From a virus: a stretch of DNA of 64,000 nt. Position numbers and translations under genes: made by a program. The stretch covers positions 1-64,000 of IMG/VR virus record IMGVR_UViG_3300030329_005371; one strand, 5' to 3'. The stretch's first letter is position 1, and each line of letters opens with the position of its first letter. This document shows, one piece after another, positions 1-42,399 of this stretch. The notes below the pieces were generated by a model. It had not been told where the DNA came from and ran no database searches. It saw nothing but the letters and a program-made list of their open reading frames with translations.

Positions 1-4
1 CTCT

Positions 5-58
5 GAGACATTTAATGACAAGTCTCCTCTTGTAATGAGGGGAGGCTTCGTGTATACT
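5..58 (+). promoter_or_regulatory. Phased-box sigma70-type promoter, copy 1
   Basis: Degenerate boxes GAGACA (5-10) and ATGACA (15-20) lie 10 nt apart. TTGTAA (30-35) begins 15 nt after the start of the second box, and TATACT (53-58) follows a 17-nt spacer. The same spacings recur exactly in four other promoters of this block. It should drive the small gene starting at 83. Confidence 0.7.
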
Positions 59-82
59 TGTGAAGTAATCAAGGAGGATTCA

Positions 83-223
83 ATGTCCTATCTCGTCACT
101 GGCCCCATCGCATCCGTTCACGTGAGTGATCGCGTCATCCAGATCTGGAGCGACGATCAGCTTCGTGAGGTCTGCGATTACTTTGATTCAATCGGCGTTT
201 CCTACGACCTCGTAATCGTGTGA
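83..223 (+). CDS. Small hypothetical protein (46 aa)
   Basis: Unknown 46-residue protein starting MSYLVTG. The start at 83 is chosen because a strong Shine-Dalgarno AAGGAGGA lies 71-78 and the promoter -10 at 53-58 puts transcription start near 65. The longer reading from 35 would begin upstream of the transcript. It is acidic with alternating hydrophobic and polar residues and has no recognisable motif. As the first gene behind a phased-box promoter it is probably an early-expressed accessory protein (inference). Confidence 0.65.
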   Translation: MSYLVTGPIASVHVSDRVIQIWSDDQLREVCDYFDSIGVSYDLVIV

Positions 224-273
224 CATTTCGTGACATAATAATCCTTGCGCTTTAAGCGCTCCTATGATATATT
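220..273 (+). promoter_or_regulatory. Phased-box sigma70-type promoter, copy 2
   Basis: GTGACA at 220-225 and 230-235, TTGCGC (245-250), a 17-nt spacer and TATATT (268-273). The first box overlaps the stop codon of the preceding small gene. The promoter drives the MoxR-like operon starting at 322. Confidence 0.75.
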
Positions 274-321
274 TACTACATGAGCGAGGGATGAACCCTC
301 GCCTGACCCTGGAGGCCCATC

Positions 322-1404
322 ATGGCTGTAGACTTCGCAACTTTCCTCTCTGTCGTTCCTCACATCCTTGACGCCAAGCTGCCCGTGCTTCTGCGCGGGC
401 GTCACGGCGTCGGCAAGTCTGAGGTAGTCTACCAGACCGCTGCTGTCCGTGGGCTCCCCGTTGTGGAGCGCCGTGCTTCTCAGATGACTGAGGGTGATCT
501 TCTGGGTCTGCCTGACACAGCCGACACTGATATTGACGGGCGCAAGGCTACCACCTGGAACGCTCCAGACTGGCTTGTGACCGCTTGCACTCAGCCCGTC
601 GTCCTGTTCTTGGACGAGGTTGATCGTGCGACGATGGAGGTCCGTCAAGGGCTCTTTGAGTTGACCGACAGCCGCAAGATCAACGGGTGGAAGCTCCACC
701 CTGAGACTCTGATCATCGCTGCCGTCAACGGTGGCGAGCACGGCGCCCAGTATCAGGTGGGCGAGATGGACCCTGCCGAGCTTGACCGCTGGACCGTCTT
801 CGACGTGGAGCCCAGCGCAGAGGATTGGCTCAAGTGGGCCAATGGCAAGGTTGACAGCGTTCTCTGGGACTTTGTTAACATGAACCGCGCCCATATGGAG
901 CACATCGGTGACTTTGAGCCTAACAAGGTTTACCCGTCCCGTCGTAGCTGGAAGCGGTTCAATGATACCGTGGAGCCCTCCGGTGTGTTCGGTGAGGAAG
1001 GCGATCGCGATCTCCTCTTCAACCTCGCCACTGCCTTCGTCGGGTTTGAGGCTGCGGTCGCCCTGCGTGACTTCGTTGAGAAGTACGAGTGGCAGGTGAC
1101 TGTCGAGGACATCCTTGACGCTGGCGACCTCTCCAAGACCGAGCAGTGGGGCATCAATGACCACTCGGCCATGATCGAGAAGTTTGAGGCTGCGGAGGTC
1201 TTCAAGGAGACTCTGACCGAGGAGCAGATCGCCAACCTCGCTGCCTACTTCGTCAGCCTGCCCTCTGAGGTCGCCATGAAGCTCTGGACCGTCTTGGGCG
1301 ACACCGATAACATTGATAATGTTGTCGCGCTCCACAAGGCTGAGACTGCCGATGGCAAGCGTGTGAGCGACCACCTTGTGGAGATCCTTGGCGGAGCGCA
1401 GTAA
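322..1404 (+). CDS. MoxR-type AAA+ ATPase
   Basis: AAA+ ATPase of the MoxR type (360 aa). Walker A is GRHGVGKS (residues 26-33) and Walker B is VVLFLDEVDR (about 93-102). A polar sensor-1-like stretch IIAAVNGG follows, and the C-terminal half looks like a helical lid. MoxR ATPases act with von Willebrand A (VWA) proteins to remodel or activate target complexes. Here the natural partner is the VWA/HExxH protein at 1880, in the same block and behind the same promoter type. Start: GGAGG 10 nt upstream of ATG 322. Its end overlaps the start of the next gene by one base (TAATG). The target of the pair is unknown. Confidence 0.88.
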   Translation: MAVDFATFLSVVPHILDAKLPVLLRGRHGVGKSEVVYQTAAVRGLPVVERRASQMTEGDLLGLPDTADTDIDGRKATTWNAPDWLVTACTQPVVLFLDEVDRATMEVRQGLFELTDSRKINGWKLHPETLIIAAVNGGEHGAQYQVGEMDPAELDRWTVFDVEPSAEDWLKWANGKVDSVLWDFVNMNRAHMEHIGDFEPNKVYPSRRSWKRFNDTVEPSGVFGEEGDRDLLFNLATAFVGFEAAVALRDFVEKYEWQVTVEDILDAGDLSKTEQWGINDHSAMIEKFEAAEVFKETLTEEQIANLAAYFVSLPSEVAMKLWTVLGDTDNIDNVVALHKAETADGKRVSDHLVEILGGAQ

Positions 1405-1613
1405 TGCGCCCGCTCCGGGTCGGTGACCTTGTGTGCCTGCATGAGCCTCGCCCCGAGAAGTGGCGAGAGAAGCATCACGGTGCGGGCATCGTGACCCGCA
1501 TCGAACTGTTTGCGGAAGGCGACAAGTACCCGCACATCACGGTTAAGTGGCTCAAGTCTGACGAGTCGTTTAAGTTCCTGGCTCAAGACCTCAAGGTGCT
1601 CCATGAAGTCTGA
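1404..1613 (+). CDS. Small SH3-like barrel protein
   Basis: A 69-aa protein with the pattern VGDLV near the N-terminus, a central GAGIV, and a beta strand ITVKWL. This is the layout of a small SH3/KOW-like beta barrel, inferred from pattern alone. It is translationally coupled to the MoxR-like gene by a TAATG overlap and overlaps the next gene by 11 nt. Around a dozen proteins of this look occur in the window. Function unknown; such barrels often bind protein or nucleic acid. Confidence 0.7.
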   Translation: MRPLRVGDLVCLHEPRPEKWREKHHGAGIVTRIELFAEGDKYPHITVKWLKSDESFKFLAQDLKVLHEV

Positions 1614-1806
1614 GTTAAAGATAGGGGATCTCCTCATTTCACGCGATACCGGCAAGCCTGGGTTAATCATGGCGATTCGCGAGGGCAGACAGAACGAGTA
1701 CGGGAGTACCACGCGAAAGCGCAAGGTATACCGCGTCTTTGACGATGGCCGCGAATACTGGCTTCACGATATTGAGGTCCGAGCCAAGTTCATCATCAGC
1801 CCGTGA
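1603..1806 (+). CDS. Small SH3-like barrel protein
   Basis: A 67-aa protein starting MKSELKIGDLLI. The start at 1603 overlaps the previous gene and keeps the IGDLL signature near the N-terminus; a longer upstream reading in this frame would run deep through the previous gene. It repeats the pattern GD(L/I)-turn-GLIM-strand-YWL seen in the gene before it, so the two are probably tandem divergent paralogues. The stop codon sits inside the GTGACA box of the next promoter. Confidence 0.65.
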   Translation: MKSELKIGDLLISRDTGKPGLIMAIREGRQNEYGSTTRKRKVYRVFDDGREYWLHDIEVRAKFIISP

Positions 1807-1856
1807 CAAACCGTGACATCTTTTCTATTGACCTTTACCCTCGCAGGGTGTATATT
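1803..1856 (+). promoter_or_regulatory. Phased-box sigma70-type promoter, copy 3
   Basis: GTGACA 1803-1808 and 1813-1818, TTGACC 1828-1833, a 17-nt spacer, TATATT 1851-1856. The stretch from the second box to the -35 is nearly identical to copy 4. Transcribes the VWA gene at 1880. Confidence 0.82.
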
Positions 1857-1879
1857 TACAGGGTAGCCAGGAGTTTTAC

Positions 1880-3172
1880 ATGTCTGACGATACCAAGCCC
1901 ATCCCGTTCAACTTGAACCTTCACGCCGCTCGCCTTCTTATGCGCGAGCCCTTCTTCGCTGCGCTGTCTCGTCGCATCGACAAGACGCCGACGACTTCGA
2001 TCCCGACCGCTGGCGTTCGTGTCAATCCTGAGCGTGCCCAGTTTGAGCTTCTTTACAATCCTGAGTTCATGGGTCAGTTGAAGGACGAGCACAAGCTGGG
2101 CGTCCTGATGCACGAGTTCTATCACATCATCTTCGAGCATGTGACCGGTCGCAAGCCAGCCGATGGCCTCAAGCGCATCGACAATATCGCGATGGACCTC
2201 GCGATCAACGGTCTGCCCGAGATGAAGGGCAAGCTGCCCTGCGAGTCCGATCCTGGCCCGATGATGCCGAATGGCGAGCCCATGAAGGGCTGTCTGCCCG
2301 GTGAAGGCCCATTTGCCGAGCTTCCCGCTGGTAAGACCTACGAGTGGTATCTGGAAGCCCTTAAAGATATGGCCCAGGAGCAGGAAGAGGGCGACGGTGG
2401 CGAAGGCGAGGGCGAAGGTCAAGGCAGCGGTCAGGGCGATGGCTCTGGTCAGCAAGGTCAAGGCTCTGGCGACCCGTTCGGTGGCGCGGATAGCTTCGAC
2501 TCACATGAGGAGTTCGGTGAGGGCGAGAGCACAACCACCGAGATCGCCAAGGAGCGGCTCAAGGACTCGATCAAGAAGGCAGCAGAGGAGGCCGAGAAGT
2601 CCCGTAACTGGGGCTCTGTGTCCTCTCAGATGCGTCAGGACATCCTTGAGCGCATCCAGACCAAGATCGACTGGCGCAAGGTGCTCCGCTATTTCGTGAA
2701 GACCTCACAGCGCAGCGACAAGCGTTCCACGCCTCGACGCCTTAACAAGCGTTTCCCCAAGGTCCACCCTGGCAAGCGTGTGACCCGTCACGCCAAGATC
2801 GCGATCAGCATCGACCAGAGCGGATCGGTGGATGATCGTATGCTCTCGATGTTCTTCTCCGAGCTTAACAAGCTCGCAGAGATCGCAGAGTTCACGGTGA
2901 TCCCGTTCGACTCGTCCGTGGGCGTGGATAAGATATATGTATGGAAGAAAGGCCAGAACCGCAAGACCGAGCGCGTTATGTGCGGGGGTACGTGCTTCAA
3001 CGCACCGACCAAGTACGTCAACGATCACGGTTTCGACGGTCACATCATCCTGACGGATCTGATGGCTCCCAAGCCGATCGCGTCCAAGTGTCAGCGTATG
3101 TGGATGACGACTAAGGCATACGCCGCTCGTCCATACTTCCAGACCAATGAGCGCGTGATCGCGGTAGACTGA
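1880..3172 (+). CDS. VWA-domain protein with HExxH metallopeptidase-like N-terminus
   Basis: A 430-aa protein in three parts. The N-terminal domain carries MHEFYH (HExxH at residues 78-82) with a further His nearby, as in VWA-associated putative metallopeptidases (DUF2201-like). A Gly/Gln/Glu-rich low-complexity linker covers about 165-200. The C-terminal VWA domain has a MIDAS-type DQSGS near residue 312. This architecture is the known companion of MoxR ATPases, encoded at 322. It has its own phased-box promoter and an SD (CAGGAG) ahead of ATG 1880. Whether the zinc site is catalytic cannot be told from sequence. The natural target is unknown. Confidence 0.85.
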   Translation: MSDDTKPIPFNLNLHAARLLMREPFFAALSRRIDKTPTTSIPTAGVRVNPERAQFELLYNPEFMGQLKDEHKLGVLMHEFYHIIFEHVTGRKPADGLKRIDNIAMDLAINGLPEMKGKLPCESDPGPMMPNGEPMKGCLPGEGPFAELPAGKTYEWYLEALKDMAQEQEEGDGGEGEGEGQGSGQGDGSGQQGQGSGDPFGGADSFDSHEEFGEGESTTTEIAKERLKDSIKKAAEEAEKSRNWGSVSSQMRQDILERIQTKIDWRKVLRYFVKTSQRSDKRSTPRRLNKRFPKVHPGKRVTRHAKIAISIDQSGSVDDRMLSMFFSELNKLAEIAEFTVIPFDSSVGVDKIYVWKKGQNRKTERVMCGGTCFNAPTKYVNDHGFDGHIILTDLMAPKPIASKCQRMWMTTKAYAARPYFQTNERVIAVD

Positions 3173-3180
3173 GGATAGAC

Positions 3181-3474
3181 ATGAAGTATTACATCAGCAA
3201 AACACACATCGGCTTAGACGCCTCTGGGCGCCTCTCAGGCTATGAGACTGTCCTTACCCGTCCCGACACGCTCAAAGCCGCTACAGAGGCTCTCAGGCGC
3301 TATAAAGCCATAGGAATCACGTCCATCCACCTGTGCGAGCATCCCAAGAACTCGCGAAGGTACGGTAAACTTGATCGAGAGGCTGGCAAGCGTCGAGGGA
3401 AGGCCCGAAAGCTGACCCTGGCCGACGTTGCGGCGGATCTCGCAGAGCTTGAGAAAGAGAGTGACAAGTCGTGA
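3181..3474 (+). CDS. Basic hypothetical protein (97 aa)
   Basis: Unknown basic 97-aa protein. The middle is Arg/Lys-rich (SRRYGKLDREAGKRRGKARK) and the C-terminus is an acidic helix. It follows the VWA gene by 8 nt with a GAGG-type ribosome site, so it is probably co-transcribed. Its end overlaps the next promoter's GTGACA boxes. The basic central segment could bind nucleic acid, but no family is recognised. Confidence 0.65.
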   Translation: MKYYISKTHIGLDASGRLSGYETVLTRPDTLKAATEALRRYKAIGITSIHLCEHPKNSRRYGKLDREAGKRRGKARKLTLADVAADLAELEKESDKS

Positions 3475-3514
3475 CATCTTTTCTATTGATCTCTGCTCTC
3501 GCATCGTGTATACT
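3461..3514 (+). promoter_or_regulatory. Phased-box sigma70-type promoter, copy 4
   Basis: GTGACA 3461-3466 and 3471-3476, TTGATC 3486-3491, a 17-nt spacer, TATACT 3509-3514. Transcribes the gene at 3538, which has a GGAGG site at 3528-3532. Confidence 0.82.
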
Positions 3515-3537
3515 TCTCAAGTAACTCGGAGGTTATT

Positions 3538-4386
3538 ATGGCTCGCTCTACTTATGGAACCCGTCTTGAAGCTCTGATCGCGAATCCCGCGATCTCCTCG
3601 CGTGACAAGACCTTCGCGGAGTCTCTTCTCCGCTTCTACACGTCCAAGCGTCGGCTCACTGCCGGTCGCGCTCGCTGCGTTAAGCAGTTGGAGGACCGCT
3701 ATAGCCCCGAGAAGCTCGCCGCTGCTCTGGAGAAGGGTGCGCCTATGCTTGAGCGGCTCAACGCCGTCTGCGAGCGCACAGAGCCCAAGTCTTGGGGTCG
3801 CGGCTTCGTTAACTCGCTCCAGGGTCAGATCATGGCTGGACGCGAGTTGTCCGAGAAGCAGATCAAGACCCTGGAGAAGATCGAGGCTGAGAACAGCGAC
3901 GAGGCGATCAAGGCTCGCGACACGTGGAAGCTCGACTATATCTATGAGAACGATCCCGCGTGGGTGGGTTCCGAGCATCGGAGCGCACGCCATTACGAGG
4001 TCGCCAAGGTCGCCGCTCGCTATTACAAGGCTGCGGGCTACTTTCAGCGTCTTGTTGACTCGATCCTCAATGACGACGGCTTTGTGCCCACGATCGAGCA
4101 GTATAACAAGATCACTAAGAACAAGTTCGCGGTCAAGGTCTTGACGGCACACTTCGCTGATCCCAAGTTCGCCCCTGGCTCGCTTGTCCAGTTCGGTGCT
4201 GGTGCTTCTGGCGCCCTGCGCCGGATCAAGGTGCCCTGTGTCGTGATCTCCAGCAACGGAGGCCCGATCGTCAGCGCAGCAAAGGGCGCGAAAGTTTACA
4301 GCGTGCTGCCGATGGGTAGCGCGAAAACCCTGCTCTGCGAAGAGCGACATCTCAAGAAGGCCCGAAAGGTCGGAGGTAAGAAATGA
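3538..4386 (+). CDS. Hypothetical protein (282 aa)
   Basis: Unknown 282-aa protein, mostly helical and Lys/Arg/Glu-rich. A C-terminal part with alternating hydrophobic strands (about 215-270) could be another small beta barrel (GSLVQFG followed by KVPCVVI and AKVYSV). Preceded by its own phased-box promoter and a GGAGG ribosome site. It overlaps the next gene by ATGA. The strong GC bias at third positions makes long shadow frames on the opposite strand, but the SD and promoter decide for this strand. Confidence 0.78.
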   Translation: MARSTYGTRLEALIANPAISSRDKTFAESLLRFYTSKRRLTAGRARCVKQLEDRYSPEKLAAALEKGAPMLERLNAVCERTEPKSWGRGFVNSLQGQIMAGRELSEKQIKTLEKIEAENSDEAIKARDTWKLDYIYENDPAWVGSEHRSARHYEVAKVAARYYKAAGYFQRLVDSILNDDGFVPTIEQYNKITKNKFAVKVLTAHFADPKFAPGSLVQFGAGASGALRRIKVPCVVISSNGGPIVSAAKGAKVYSVLPMGSAKTLLCEERHLKKARKVGGKK

Positions 4387-4565
4387 TGACCCAGCAACCC
4401 GAAACACGTCCAGACACCGCTATGGAGGTCGCACAGGCCAACTGTGAAGTGATGATCGCCCAGCTTGCGACCTGGGCGCAGATCAAGAGCGGAAACACCG
4501 AGCAGGCGACCGAGGATCTTATGCTCGTCGTCCTGGCTGGTATGAATATCCCAGCGGAGGCATAG
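4383..4565 (+). CDS. Small acidic hypothetical protein (60 aa)
   Basis: A 60-aa helical protein of unknown function, coupled to the previous gene by an ATGA overlap and followed by the next gene after one base. Two Met codons (4383, 4386) could start it; 4383 gives the classic 4-nt overlap. No motif recognised. Confidence 0.6.
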   Translation: MMTQQPETRPDTAMEVAQANCEVMIAQLATWAQIKSGNTEQATEDLMLVVLAGMNIPAEA

Positions 4566-4566
4566 G

Positions 4567-4881
4567 ATGGTCGTAACCGTTCCGCCTTGTCTCGCTGATC
4601 TGCCCAGTGGTCGCTATGCGGTCGCTGGGTCTACTTGGATCCGTGTGCCCGACGATACGAAGTTTGAGGATCTCGACAAGTATATGACCTATGAGCGTAA
4701 ACGCCCTGAGAGCCCTTCTGACGCCTCTGAGCGCGTCTGGGCTGTCGTGGGTAGTAAAGGCGCACGCTACAGCGTGAGAGCCAACCAGGGGCGTTATACT
4801 TGCTCCTGTCCCGGTTTCGGCTGGCGTCGGAAGTGTAAGCACATCGAGCAGGTTAAGAAAGAAAACTGTGACAAGTCGTGA
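4567..4881 (+). CDS. SWIM zinc-finger protein
   Basis: A 104-aa protein ending in a SWIM-type zinc-binding motif, CSCPGFGWRRKCKH (about residues 79-92), the CxC...CxH signature. SWIM fingers mediate DNA or protein binding. The N-terminal half is a short unassigned domain. It closes the 3538-4881 operon, and its last codons overlap the GTGACA boxes of the next promoter. It contains the peptide PESPSD, encoded by a 19-nt sequence that is repeated in the gene at 5196. Confidence 0.8.
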   Translation: MVVTVPPCLADLPSGRYAVAGSTWIRVPDDTKFEDLDKYMTYERKRPESPSDASERVWAVVGSKGARYSVRANQGRYTCSCPGFGWRRKCKHIEQVKKENCDKS

Positions 4882-4921
4882 CACAGATCCGCTTGTAATC
4901 CTCGCCCGCCTATGCTATATT
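4868..4921 (+). promoter_or_regulatory. Phased-box sigma70-type promoter, copy 5
   Basis: GTGACA 4868-4873 and 4878-4883, TTGTAA 4893-4898, a 17-nt spacer, TATATT 4916-4921. Upstream of the genes at 4947 and 5196. Confidence 0.82.
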
Positions 4922-4946
4922 GTCTGAGTAGCCCAAGGAGCACACT

Positions 4947-5165
4947 ATGAGAGACATTTCTGACCCCATCCTTTTCGATCGCGCCTGTGAGCAGTTTGAA
5001 GCTGACATCCTGCCTATGGTTCAGGAAGTCTATGAGCAGGACGGGATCCCTGACTGGCCAGCGCGTTCCGAGGCTTGGCTCGCCTGGACCGATTCACTTT
5101 GTAAGGATGGACTGATTTCTGACTGGCAATACGACAACTGGACTCACCCGCGTTGTTGCGGTTGA
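4947..5165 (+). CDS. Small acidic Trp-rich hypothetical protein (72 aa)
   Basis: Unknown 72-aa acidic protein with six Trp residues and a C-terminal Cys pair (RCCG). A good ribosome site (AAGGAG) precedes ATG 4947, directly downstream of the fifth phased-box promoter. No family recognised. Confidence 0.68.
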   Translation: MRDISDPILFDRACEQFEADILPMVQEVYEQDGIPDWPARSEAWLAWTDSLCKDGLISDWQYDNWTHPRCCG

Positions 5166-5195
5166 TCCGAGATCACATCTACAGGAGATAGACAT

Positions 5196-5741
5196 ATGAA
5201 TACTGAAACTTTGAAAAGCTATAAGCTCACTCAGAACGAATGGCACGTTCTCGCCGCTATTGCTGCTGGTCACTACGCTGCCACGAACTGGCTGAAGGAG
5301 TCACTGACCCTTGACCTTGACGTGCTGGTGCTGGCTGGCCTTGTCGAGCGTGGCGAAGACCGTCCCGTGCTTACGAGCGAAGGCCACGAAGCTGCGGCTG
5401 CGATCGATATGATCTTTGATTGGGATGAGTTCGCTTTCGCAGAATCGCCTGAGAGCCCTTCTGACGGCGAGGAGATGGTTTTCCTTAACGGTGAGCCTAT
5501 CAAGCGTAGCGAAGCCCTGGAGATGGTTGCGGAGCGCCCTAAGCCGCTCTCTGTCGGCTCGCTGGTGCGTCACGTTCCAACCGGTGGCGTGGGGCTCATC
5601 ACGAAGCATACGATGTATGACGCGAACTGGGGCGGGTTCTATGTGGATTTTGTTAAGCCTGTTGACAATGTTATTGATGGTCGCGTTACCAATCAGTTGA
5701 CGCGGATCTTCGATCGTGGTGATAAGTTTGAGAGGATATAG
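5196..5741 (+). CDS. Winged-helix-like N-terminus fused to an SH3-like C-terminus
   Basis: A 181-aa protein. Residues 10-70 (LTQNEWHVLAAIAAG ... LVLAGLVERG ... LTSEGHEAA) read like a MarR-type winged helix. After an acidic linker with the PESPSD peptide, the C-terminus (VGSLVRHVP ... GVGLITK ... FYVDFV) has the SH3-like pattern of the window's small barrel family. A DNA-binding regulator with a barrel appendage is a reasonable guess but is inference. SD CAGGAG precedes ATG 5196. It is the last gene of the GC-rich block. Confidence 0.68.
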   Translation: MNTETLKSYKLTQNEWHVLAAIAAGHYAATNWLKESLTLDLDVLVLAGLVERGEDRPVLTSEGHEAAAAIDMIFDWDEFAFAESPESPSDGEEMVFLNGEPIKRSEALEMVAERPKPLSVGSLVRHVPTGGVGLITKHTMYDANWGGFYVDFVKPVDNVIDGRVTNQLTRIFDRGDKFERI

Positions 5742-5745
5742 AGAA

Positions 5746-5850
5746 ATGGATAATAGAGTTAAATACATCGTTATCGCAATGGATGTATTATGTTGGGGCA
5801 CGTTAGCTTTGCTGGCGGTCCACCACTTCAACTGCCCGCTATCCTTCTAA
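5746..5850 (+). CDS. Small membrane protein (34 aa)
   Basis: A 34-codon frame, ATG 5746 to TAA 5850, preceded by GAGGATATAGAGA. It encodes a short hydrophobic segment (VIAMDVLCWGTLALLAV) fit to cross a membrane. It lies 4 nt after the gene at 5196 and is probably coupled to it. Composition shifts from GC-rich to AT-rich here. Confidence 0.5.
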   Translation: MDNRVKYIVIAMDVLCWGTLALLAVHHFNCPLSF

Positions 5851-27646: not shown

Positions 27647-27983
27647 GGGAGCGAAATGGCTTCGACAGGGTAAGGATGAAGTCGAGTGCAAGTAGGTAAG
27701 ATACAACCTTAATAGTTCAAAACAATAGTTGCAAATAACAACACACACTTCGAAGCAGCTCGCTTAGCGGCTTAATCGAGGAGGCTGATTAGAGCCTTCT
27801 ATCCAATCTAATCAAAATAACAGACAAGTTATAAAAATCAAACTATTTATCGCAACAGGGTGGTAAGCGATATCTTATAGCCATCTATCTTTGTCAATAG
27901 GTGATAGTAAATTGACTAAGCTTGTGAATGACTTGCCTTTTGAGGTATCGTGGACGCGGGTTCGACTCCCGCCGCTTCCACCA
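27647..27983 (+). ncRNA. ssrA: tmRNA (transfer-messenger RNA), one-piece
   Basis: Complete one-piece tmRNA of about 337 nt. The 5' GGGAGCG (27647-27653) pairs with 3' CGCTTCC (27973-27979), followed by discriminator A and encoded CCA (27981-27983). The T-arm GCGGGTTCGACTCCCGC is canonical and the 5' part carries GAAATGGCTTCGACAGG. The tag frame opens at the resume codon GCA (27731) and reads ANNNTHFEAARLAA then TAA (27773-27775), ending in the LAA degron that ClpXP-type proteases recognise. It would rescue stalled ribosomes and tag nascent chains. No SmpB gene is seen in the window, so host SmpB would be required. Confidence 0.93.
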
Positions 27984-37039: not shown

Positions 37040-37115
37040 GCCACTTTAGCTCAGTTGGTAGAGCAGCTGATTTGTAATCAGCAGGTCGTAGGTTCGACTC
37101 CTATAAGTGGCTCCA
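37040..37115 (+). tRNA. tRNA-Thr (anticodon UGU), CCA encoded
   Basis: Full cloverleaf: acceptor GCCACTT (37040-37046) with AAGTGGC (37105-37111), D-arm AGCTCAGTTGGTAGAGCA-type, anticodon stem GCTGA/TCAGC with loop TTTGTAA (anticodon TGT, decoding ACA), T-arm with GGTTCGACTCC, discriminator T and encoded CCA (37113-37115). ACA is frequent in the AT-rich genes of this phage. Confidence 0.95.
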
Positions 37116-41112: not shown

Positions 41113-42399
41113 ATGACAAAAAAGAAAATAATGGTCATCGCAGACCATCCACTATCGCCTTCCGGCGTTGGTACCCAGACAAGGTACTTTATTGAAGCTC
41201 TCTTAAACACTGATAGATATAAATTTATTTGTTTAGGAGGAGCATTACAGCATCAGGATTATAGACCGCAGAGAGTCGCTCCATTTGAAGATGATTGGGT
41301 AATATATCCAGTCGAAGGATATGGTAATGACGAAATGATTCGCTCTATTCTTCGCAAAGAAAAGCCTGACGTGCTTTGGTTTATGACAGATCCCAGGTTC
41401 TATGGATGGCTGTGGGAAATTGAAAATGAAGTAAGAGTAAATGTCCCCATGATCTATTATCATGTGTGGGATAATTTTCCGGCTCCTTATTATAATGCTC
41501 CATTTTATAATTCTAATGATAAAGTTGTAGCTATTTCAAAAGTCACACACGAAATTGTTAAAACTGTCGCGCCTGATGTGGCGTGTGAATATCTACCACA
41601 CGCAGTTGATCCTCAATATTTTAAGCCTGCGAAAGGTGGCGAAGCCGAAAGAAAAGTCGAAGCTGTAAAGAAAGCATTGCTAGAGAAAAATAGTGCGATT
41701 ACTGCCAATCCCAAAAAGAAGATATTTTTCTGGAACAGCAGAAACGCTCGCAGAAAGCAAAGCGGTACGGTGATTTGGTGGTTTAAGGAATTTCTAGATG
41801 AAGTAGGGCACGATAAAGCATGCTTGTTAATGCATACAGATGCTAGAGATCCTCACGGGCAAGACTTGCCCCATCTTATTGAGCACTTGGGAGTCAATGA
41901 AGGTCAGATATTTTTATCTACCAACAAGGTCCCTGCCGAAGATATGGCGGCTATGTACAACGCATGTGATTATACAATTAATATTTCAGATGCGGAAGGT
42001 TTTGGTCTCTCCGCATTAGAGTCATTAAGTTGTGGTGTGCCTGTTATAGTAACCATGACAGGAGGTCTTCAAGAGCAAGTAACAGATGGCAAAGACTGGT
42101 TTGGCTATGGAATCCAGCCCGCCTCTAGATCAATTATAGGCTCCCTTCAGGTTCCATATATTTATGAAGATCGTATTTCTAAAGAAGATTTTATATCCAC
42201 TCTCAAAAAGGCTCTTAATTTAAGTCCAAAGGCATACAAGAATTTGTCCAAAAAGGGACTTAAACATGTGGAGGAGAATTACAATTTTCAAACTTATAAA
42301 AAGAGATGGATAGAAATTATGGATAATTTAATTGAAGAACATGGCTCTTGGAGCGAAAGAAAAAATTATACTCGCTGGCATTTAATGGAGGTAGCGTGA
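41113..42399 (+). CDS. Glycosyltransferase, GT-B fold (GT4-like)
   Basis: A 428-aa protein: N-terminal GVGTQTRYFIEALL (donor-side glycine loop) and a C-terminal SDAEGFGLSALESLSCGVPVIV segment (E-x7-E motif) typical of GT4. It transfers a sugar from a nucleotide sugar; donor and acceptor not readable. First gene of the glycan cluster, 7 nt after the nuclease. Its last part overlaps the next gene's GTG by ATGA-like coupling. Confidence 0.88.
   Translation: MTKKKIMVIADHPLSPSGVGTQTRYFIEALLNTDRYKFICLGGALQHQDYRPQRVAPFEDDWVIYPVEGYGNDEMIRSILRKEKPDVLWFMTDPRFYGWLWEIENEVRVNVPMIYYHVWDNFPAPYYNAPFYNSNDKVVAISKVTHEIVKTVAPDVACEYLPHAVDPQYFKPAKGGEAERKVEAVKKALLEKNSAITANPKKKIFFWNSRNARRKQSGTVIWWFKEFLDEVGHDKACLLMHTDARDPHGQDLPHLIEHLGVNEGQIFLSTNKVPAEDMAAMYNACDYTINISDAEGFGLSALESLSCGVPVIVTMTGGLQEQVTDGKDWFGYGIQPASRSIIGSLQVPYIYEDRISKEDFISTLKKALNLSPKAYKNLSKKGLKHVEENYNFQTYKKRWIEIMDNLIEEHGSWSERKNYTRWHLMEVA

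Follow-up and report, generated by a model that had tools for sequence, protein, structure and literature searches.

Lambda CII, a phage-encoded activator, acts through direct TTGC-N6-TTGC repeats with a 10-bp pitch that straddle the -35 element. Among regulators of the OmpR family, CenR of Rhodobacter sphaeroides is essential and conserved in Alphaproteobacteria, and 28 of 31 CenR sites lie directly upstream of a -35 element, are co-directional with it, and are activating (PMC9275681). RpaB, an OmpR-family regulator of cyanobacteria, recognizes the HLR1 motif KTTACAWW-N2-KTTACAWW, with activating sites at -66 to -45 (PMC13421787, PMC11633204), and cyanophage genes come under control of the host PhoBR system (Zeng and Chisholm 2012, cited in PMC10976474). 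A search of the literature for GTGACA direct repeats, or for phage early promoters of this kind, found nothing relevant.

The arrays described here are tandem GTGACA boxes upstream of promoters in a 64,000-nucleotide stretch of a virus record (the window) and in related viruses, where the boxes stand in one of two registers, A or B, relative to the -35. Like sites of OmpR/PhoB-type regulators, they are head-to-tail half-sites with a pitch in the 10- to 11-bp range (a period of 10 is strongly preferred), and both registers are co-directional with and just upstream of the -35, as activating sites of that type are. They resemble CenR sites in having TGAC half-sites in a head-to-tail repeat with the same layout relative to the -35, but they are far less degenerate, occupy two fixed registers, and depart from the CenR consensus, which is TGA-N8-TGA (an 11-nt pitch as written) as opposed to TGA-N7-TGA, or TGACA-N5-TGACA, in the arrays (10 nt) (PMC9275681). 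With HLR1 they share two direct repeats and a 10-nt pitch, and pairs in register A, at about -60 to -45 when the start is taken 7 nt after the -10, fall within the activating zone of RpaB; the HLR1 consensus itself is absent, however, with first boxes reading TGACA almost throughout and TTACA occurring only in some second boxes, and no evidence pointed to a cyanobacterial host. The idea of a cyanophage was discarded, as no photosynthesis family is among the Pfam families listed.

The likeness to the PhoBR case is the use of a host OmpR/PhoB-family response regulator on phage promoters, which for the arrays is a proposal made from sequence. The cyanophage case involves a few genes with variable sites, whereas the boxes described here stand at nearly all promoters of one block, in two phased registers and with another motif; the cyanobacterial Pho box, made of PyTTAAPyPyT/A repeats, is not seen in the arrays, whose boxes lack TTAA. 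Lambda CII sites are similar in their direct repeats, 10-bp pitch, and closeness to the -35, but the TTGC repeats straddle that element and the GTGACA boxes either adjoin it or stand further upstream, so that the arrays are not sites of the CII type.

Five arrays in the window

All five arrays in the window lie on the + strand, and the initial annotation had their coordinates and spacings correct throughout: box starts are 10 nt apart, the second box starts 15 nt before the -35, and the spacer between -35 and -10 is 17 nt. Its description of tandem GTGACA boxes at all five applies in full to four of them, which carry an exact GTGACA-N4-GTGACA at 220, 1803, 3461, and 4868, but the copy at 5 is degenerate. 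This first array (5 to 58) has two mismatches, with GAGACA at 5 to 10, ATGACA at 15 to 20, a -35 of TTGTAA at 30 to 35, and a -10 of TATACT at 53 to 58; the identical 54 bases are present in the related virus G008. It precedes a gene for a 46-amino-acid protein (83 to 223, +). Array 2 (220 to 273), with boxes at 220 to 225 and 230 to 235, TTGCGC at 245 to 250, and TATATT at 268 to 273, leads to a gene for a MoxR-like AAA ATPase (322 to 1404, +; PF07728, 8.6e-10; phrog_1297, 3.6e-46). Array 3 (1803 to 1856; boxes at 1803 to 1808 and 1813 to 1818, TTGACC at 1828 to 1833, TATATT at 1851 to 1856) stands before a gene for a DUF2201 metallopeptidase-like/VWA-like protein (1880 to 3172, +; PF13203, 3.2e-21; PF09967, 7e-10). 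Array 4 (3461 to 3514; boxes at 3461 to 3466 and 3471 to 3476, TTGATC at 3486 to 3491, TATACT at 3509 to 3514) has TCTTTTCTATTGA between boxes and -35 in common with array 3 and is followed by a gene for a 282-amino-acid protein with no assigned function and no match in the phage collection (3538 to 4386, +), which is array-led also in G001, G002, and G005. Array 5 (4868 to 4921; boxes at 4868 to 4873 and 4878 to 4883, TTGTAA at 4893 to 4898, TATATT at 4916 to 4921) precedes a gene for a 72-amino-acid protein with no assigned function (4947 to 5165, +) that is array-led also in G005. The leader of the MoxR gene can form a short hairpin in three viruses (window 278 to 325; G002:4870-4916; G005:9461-9508), with stems that differ (GCGAGGG/CCCTCGC, GGGGG/CCCCC) and z-scores of only -1.3 to -1.9.

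A scan of the whole 102,630-base virus record found four exact pairs on the + strand and none on the - strand, all at these promoters; with TTG required at the -35 position, the count was four in the record and zero in a reversed control. Pairs with up to three mismatches, taken alone, were not above chance (42 found, 33 expected); the signal therefore lies in the exact pair combined with its register at the promoter.

Overlap between boxes and stop codons, reported initially for three boxes, is more extensive than that count: the TGA of the upstream gene lies in all four exact arrays (221 to 223, which ends the 46-amino-acid gene within box 1 of array 2; 1804 to 1806; 3472 to 3474; and 4879 to 4881), and in G008 an upstream-gene stop also falls inside the counterpart of the remaining array. 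Across the viruses, the stop of the upstream open frame lies inside the array in 44 of 52 cases and is nearly always the TGA of a GTGACA box. The overlap thus stands, but the argument drawn from it, that the signal was kept despite coding constraint, is weaker than claimed, because GTGACA contains TGA and the box itself provides the upstream stop at small coding cost. A box that doubles as a gene end reflects compaction and is not strong evidence for constraint.

Two registers at promoters of the block

When spacing was left free, 62 box pairs were counted at a period of 10, compared with 8.6 in shuffles and with 9 to 13 at periods of 8, 9, 11, and 12. Register A, 15 nt before the -35 with a spacer of 17 nt, accounts for 27 of the 62 pairs, and register B, 5 nt before the -35 with a spacer of 16 to 17 nt and typically reading GTGACATTTCGTGAC-TTGAC, for 15; a wider list of arrays has 31 in A and 21 in B. 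No other spacing between box and -35 is populated. The shift from A to B is 10 nt, or one helical turn, so a bound protein would stay on the same face of the helix. Within the boxes, ACA is kept and position 3 varies between G and T; within the -35 elements, TTG is kept and ACA varies.

Promoters were also chosen blind to the boxes, by TTG, a -10 at 16 to 17 nt, and a following gene with a Shine-Dalgarno sequence. A pair in register A or B is present at 39 of 45 such promoters in the array-bearing blocks, compared with 1.3% of random positions, and at none of 29 promoter-like sites outside the blocks in the virus records scanned, a comparison in which block limits were drawn after the array positions had been seen and in which related viruses are not independent. 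The absence of boxes from downstream promoters, proposed initially for the window, holds on this count.

Array-bearing viruses and cellular counterparts

A survey of 2.9 million viral contigs detected the full array (a pair with a -35 at 15 and a -10 after 17) in about ten related uncultivated viruses, namely, G001, G002, G004/G010, G005, G006, G007, G008, G009, and G011, and the more distant G014; the remaining matches to the short pattern mostly have no -10 at 17 and are chance-like. Most of the virus records are fragments. Most arrays lie within a single GC-rich block, about 15 kb long, whose start is upstream of the window: G008 is 93% identical to window positions 1 to 418 and extends further upstream, which places the start of the window inside the block. 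G014 (154,577 bases) joins the pieces, its first 9.6 kb matching mainly G006 to G009 and the rest mainly G000 to G002, and has its array block at 13.9 to 28.1 kb. G005 has 11 arrays within its first 14.2 kb, and G004 and G009 carry a single array each.

The block differs in composition from its surroundings, with a GC3 of 0.70 versus 0.34 in the rest of G000 and of 0.65 versus 0.37 in G014, and GC skew falls to about zero within it (window 1 to 5800 versus 6000 to 64000; also in G005, G008, and G014). We rejected a chimeric assembly as the source of the GC step near 6 kb on finding a like step in contigs G001, G002, G005, and G014. Upstream of the window, the block consists of dense runs of genes for proteins of 45 to 130 amino acids, most without family matches (G008:1-10700; G005:1-8300; locus L172), and these small genes are likely host-takeover genes.

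Elsewhere in these viruses, T4-type portal, prohead protease, terminase, and gp25 families are found in G002, a baseplate wedge protein and PhoH in G000, DnaE-type polymerase in G007 and G008, and GroEL in G008. A DNA comparison of the first 8 kb with 50,697 phage records gave no match, and the proteins tried stay below 60% identity in their best matches to phage records; the attempt to name a host through phage relatives failed, as PhoH, DUF2201, DnaE, GroEL, and MoxR match many phages at that level. The window also holds a tmRNA gene (27647 to 27983; tag ANNNTHFEAARLAA), a tRNA-Thr(TGT) gene (37040 to 37115), and, at 41113 to 62721, about 20 same-strand genes for proteins of 220 to 430 amino acids, the first two of which match glycosyltransferase families.

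In cells the code is rare. The strict pattern occurs in 7 stretches in 84,980 species genomes, which is about the chance level, but two of the 7 are in one assembly of the family Francisellaceae, G018. This genome and a second of the family, G387, have 6 and 12 exact pairs, respectively (controls, 0), and the other 28 have 0 or 1 each. None of 21 sites in G018 and G387 lies within a long open reading frame; TAnnnT is present at the viral -10 offset (48) in 12 of them (P = 7e-14 against a background of 2.9%), and 6 have TTG where the viral -35 would stand. Occurrence of the pair at the viral box-to--10 distance before genes in these two genomes indicates, at the level of sequence, that a cellular factor with the same site and geometry exists, although we do not equate it with the host factor of the viruses. 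The class of G018 has no enrichment, as 2 of its 369 genomes examined contain the pair with TTG, and a general regulon of Pseudomonadota was rejected on finding GTGACATTTNGTGACA in 4 of 398 genomes, near expectation. At the G018 and G387 loci (L189 to L205), several downstream genes start with signal-like hydrophobic stretches, and one protein is VgrG-like by eye. In G387, a response-regulator gene (L194:2667-3440) runs divergently from one site, which is only a lead, as the G018 loci compared contain no close orthologue. The GC3 of 0.70 in the block (0.34 in the rest of G000) suggests a higher-GC host, and G018 (about 33 to 34% GC in the stretches seen) and G387 do not look like the host of such a block.

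A candidate activator and its alternatives

The initial proposal of an activator just upstream of the -35, with boxes one turn apart, gains support from the conservation of the arrays, the register shifted by 10 nt, the split between promoters inside and outside the block, and the cellular box-to--10 distance. We lean, if only slightly, toward reading the arrays as predicted sites of a tandem-binding activator that is most likely a host response regulator of the OmpR/PhoB type. One activator would bind head to tail, one subunit per GTGACA half-site, and would touch RNA polymerase at a sigma70-type promoter, either from the position of register A or, in register B, from about 10 nt closer, adjoining the -35. 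A host-supplied regulator would switch on together, soon after DNA entry, about a dozen transcription units that consist mostly of small, unassigned, takeover-like genes. We infer activation through the site, the protein family, its host origin, and the early timing, the last from the small takeover-like genes and the sigma70-type cores. Most of the -35 and -10 elements are good enough alone, and the boxes may only tune them.

The main alternative, in which the block is turned on by a phage-encoded activator of unrecognized fold that either arrives with the virion or is produced very early, strikes us as somewhat unlikely. It would suit the high specificity of the code for this lineage among the viral contigs and its rarity in cells, as well as the many conserved small proteins without assigned function in the blocks, but genes that enter the cell first depend on a factor already present, and the same geometry occurs in cellular promoters. 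The OmpR-type DNA-binding domain PF00486 was absent from the 11 virus records searched, by which we reject a phage regulator of that type; no helix-turn-helix family is among the Pfam matches of the G014 block or among those listed for the other blocks, where mixed scans listed the best 25 families and a weak match could stand outside these. Improbable, in our judgment, is a repressor, of phage or host, that binds the boxes to silence the block or to turn it off at a later stage. Strong core promoters would profit from shut-off and register B abuts the -35, but register A is entirely upstream of that element, and repression sites of the OmpR type overlap the region of the start. Moreover, polymerase contact needs the fixed helical phase of both registers, but repressors tolerate other positions, and the other spacings are empty.

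That sigma itself reads the boxes as extra -35-like hexamers, without any activator, is very improbable despite the resemblance of GTGACA to TTGACA (5 of 6 bases of the -35 consensus), given that boxes have G rather than T at position 1, that second boxes allow T at position 3 and keep ACA where true -35s keep TTG and vary ACA, and that no -10 is positioned to serve the boxes. Least credible of all is recent duplication of a single promoter, by which the arrays would be alike through descent rather than function. The stretch common to arrays 3 and 4 is what such copying would leave, but spacers, leaders, and flanks vary while boxes and distances stay fixed, in two registers, across diverged viruses, and the code precedes unrelated cellular genes. 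The reversed control, the period count, and the split between block and outside reject a chance origin, and chance or copying fits the array evidence poorly.

If a host activator does bind the arrays, a whole lineage of large phages might have wired its complete early block to one global response regulator of the host through a two-register code, such that host two-component signaling would gate takeover, with a like regulator acting in cells with the same geometry; we offer this broader picture tentatively, as a possibility that we hold rather doubtful. In the known case of phages that use a host response regulator, a few genes are involved, whereas almost all promoters of one block appear here to be linked to a single regulator. 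A fixed, helically phased code names a testable activator and serves as a signature in the search for the host, and it would make the likely early regulon of uncultured viruses readable from their genomes alone.
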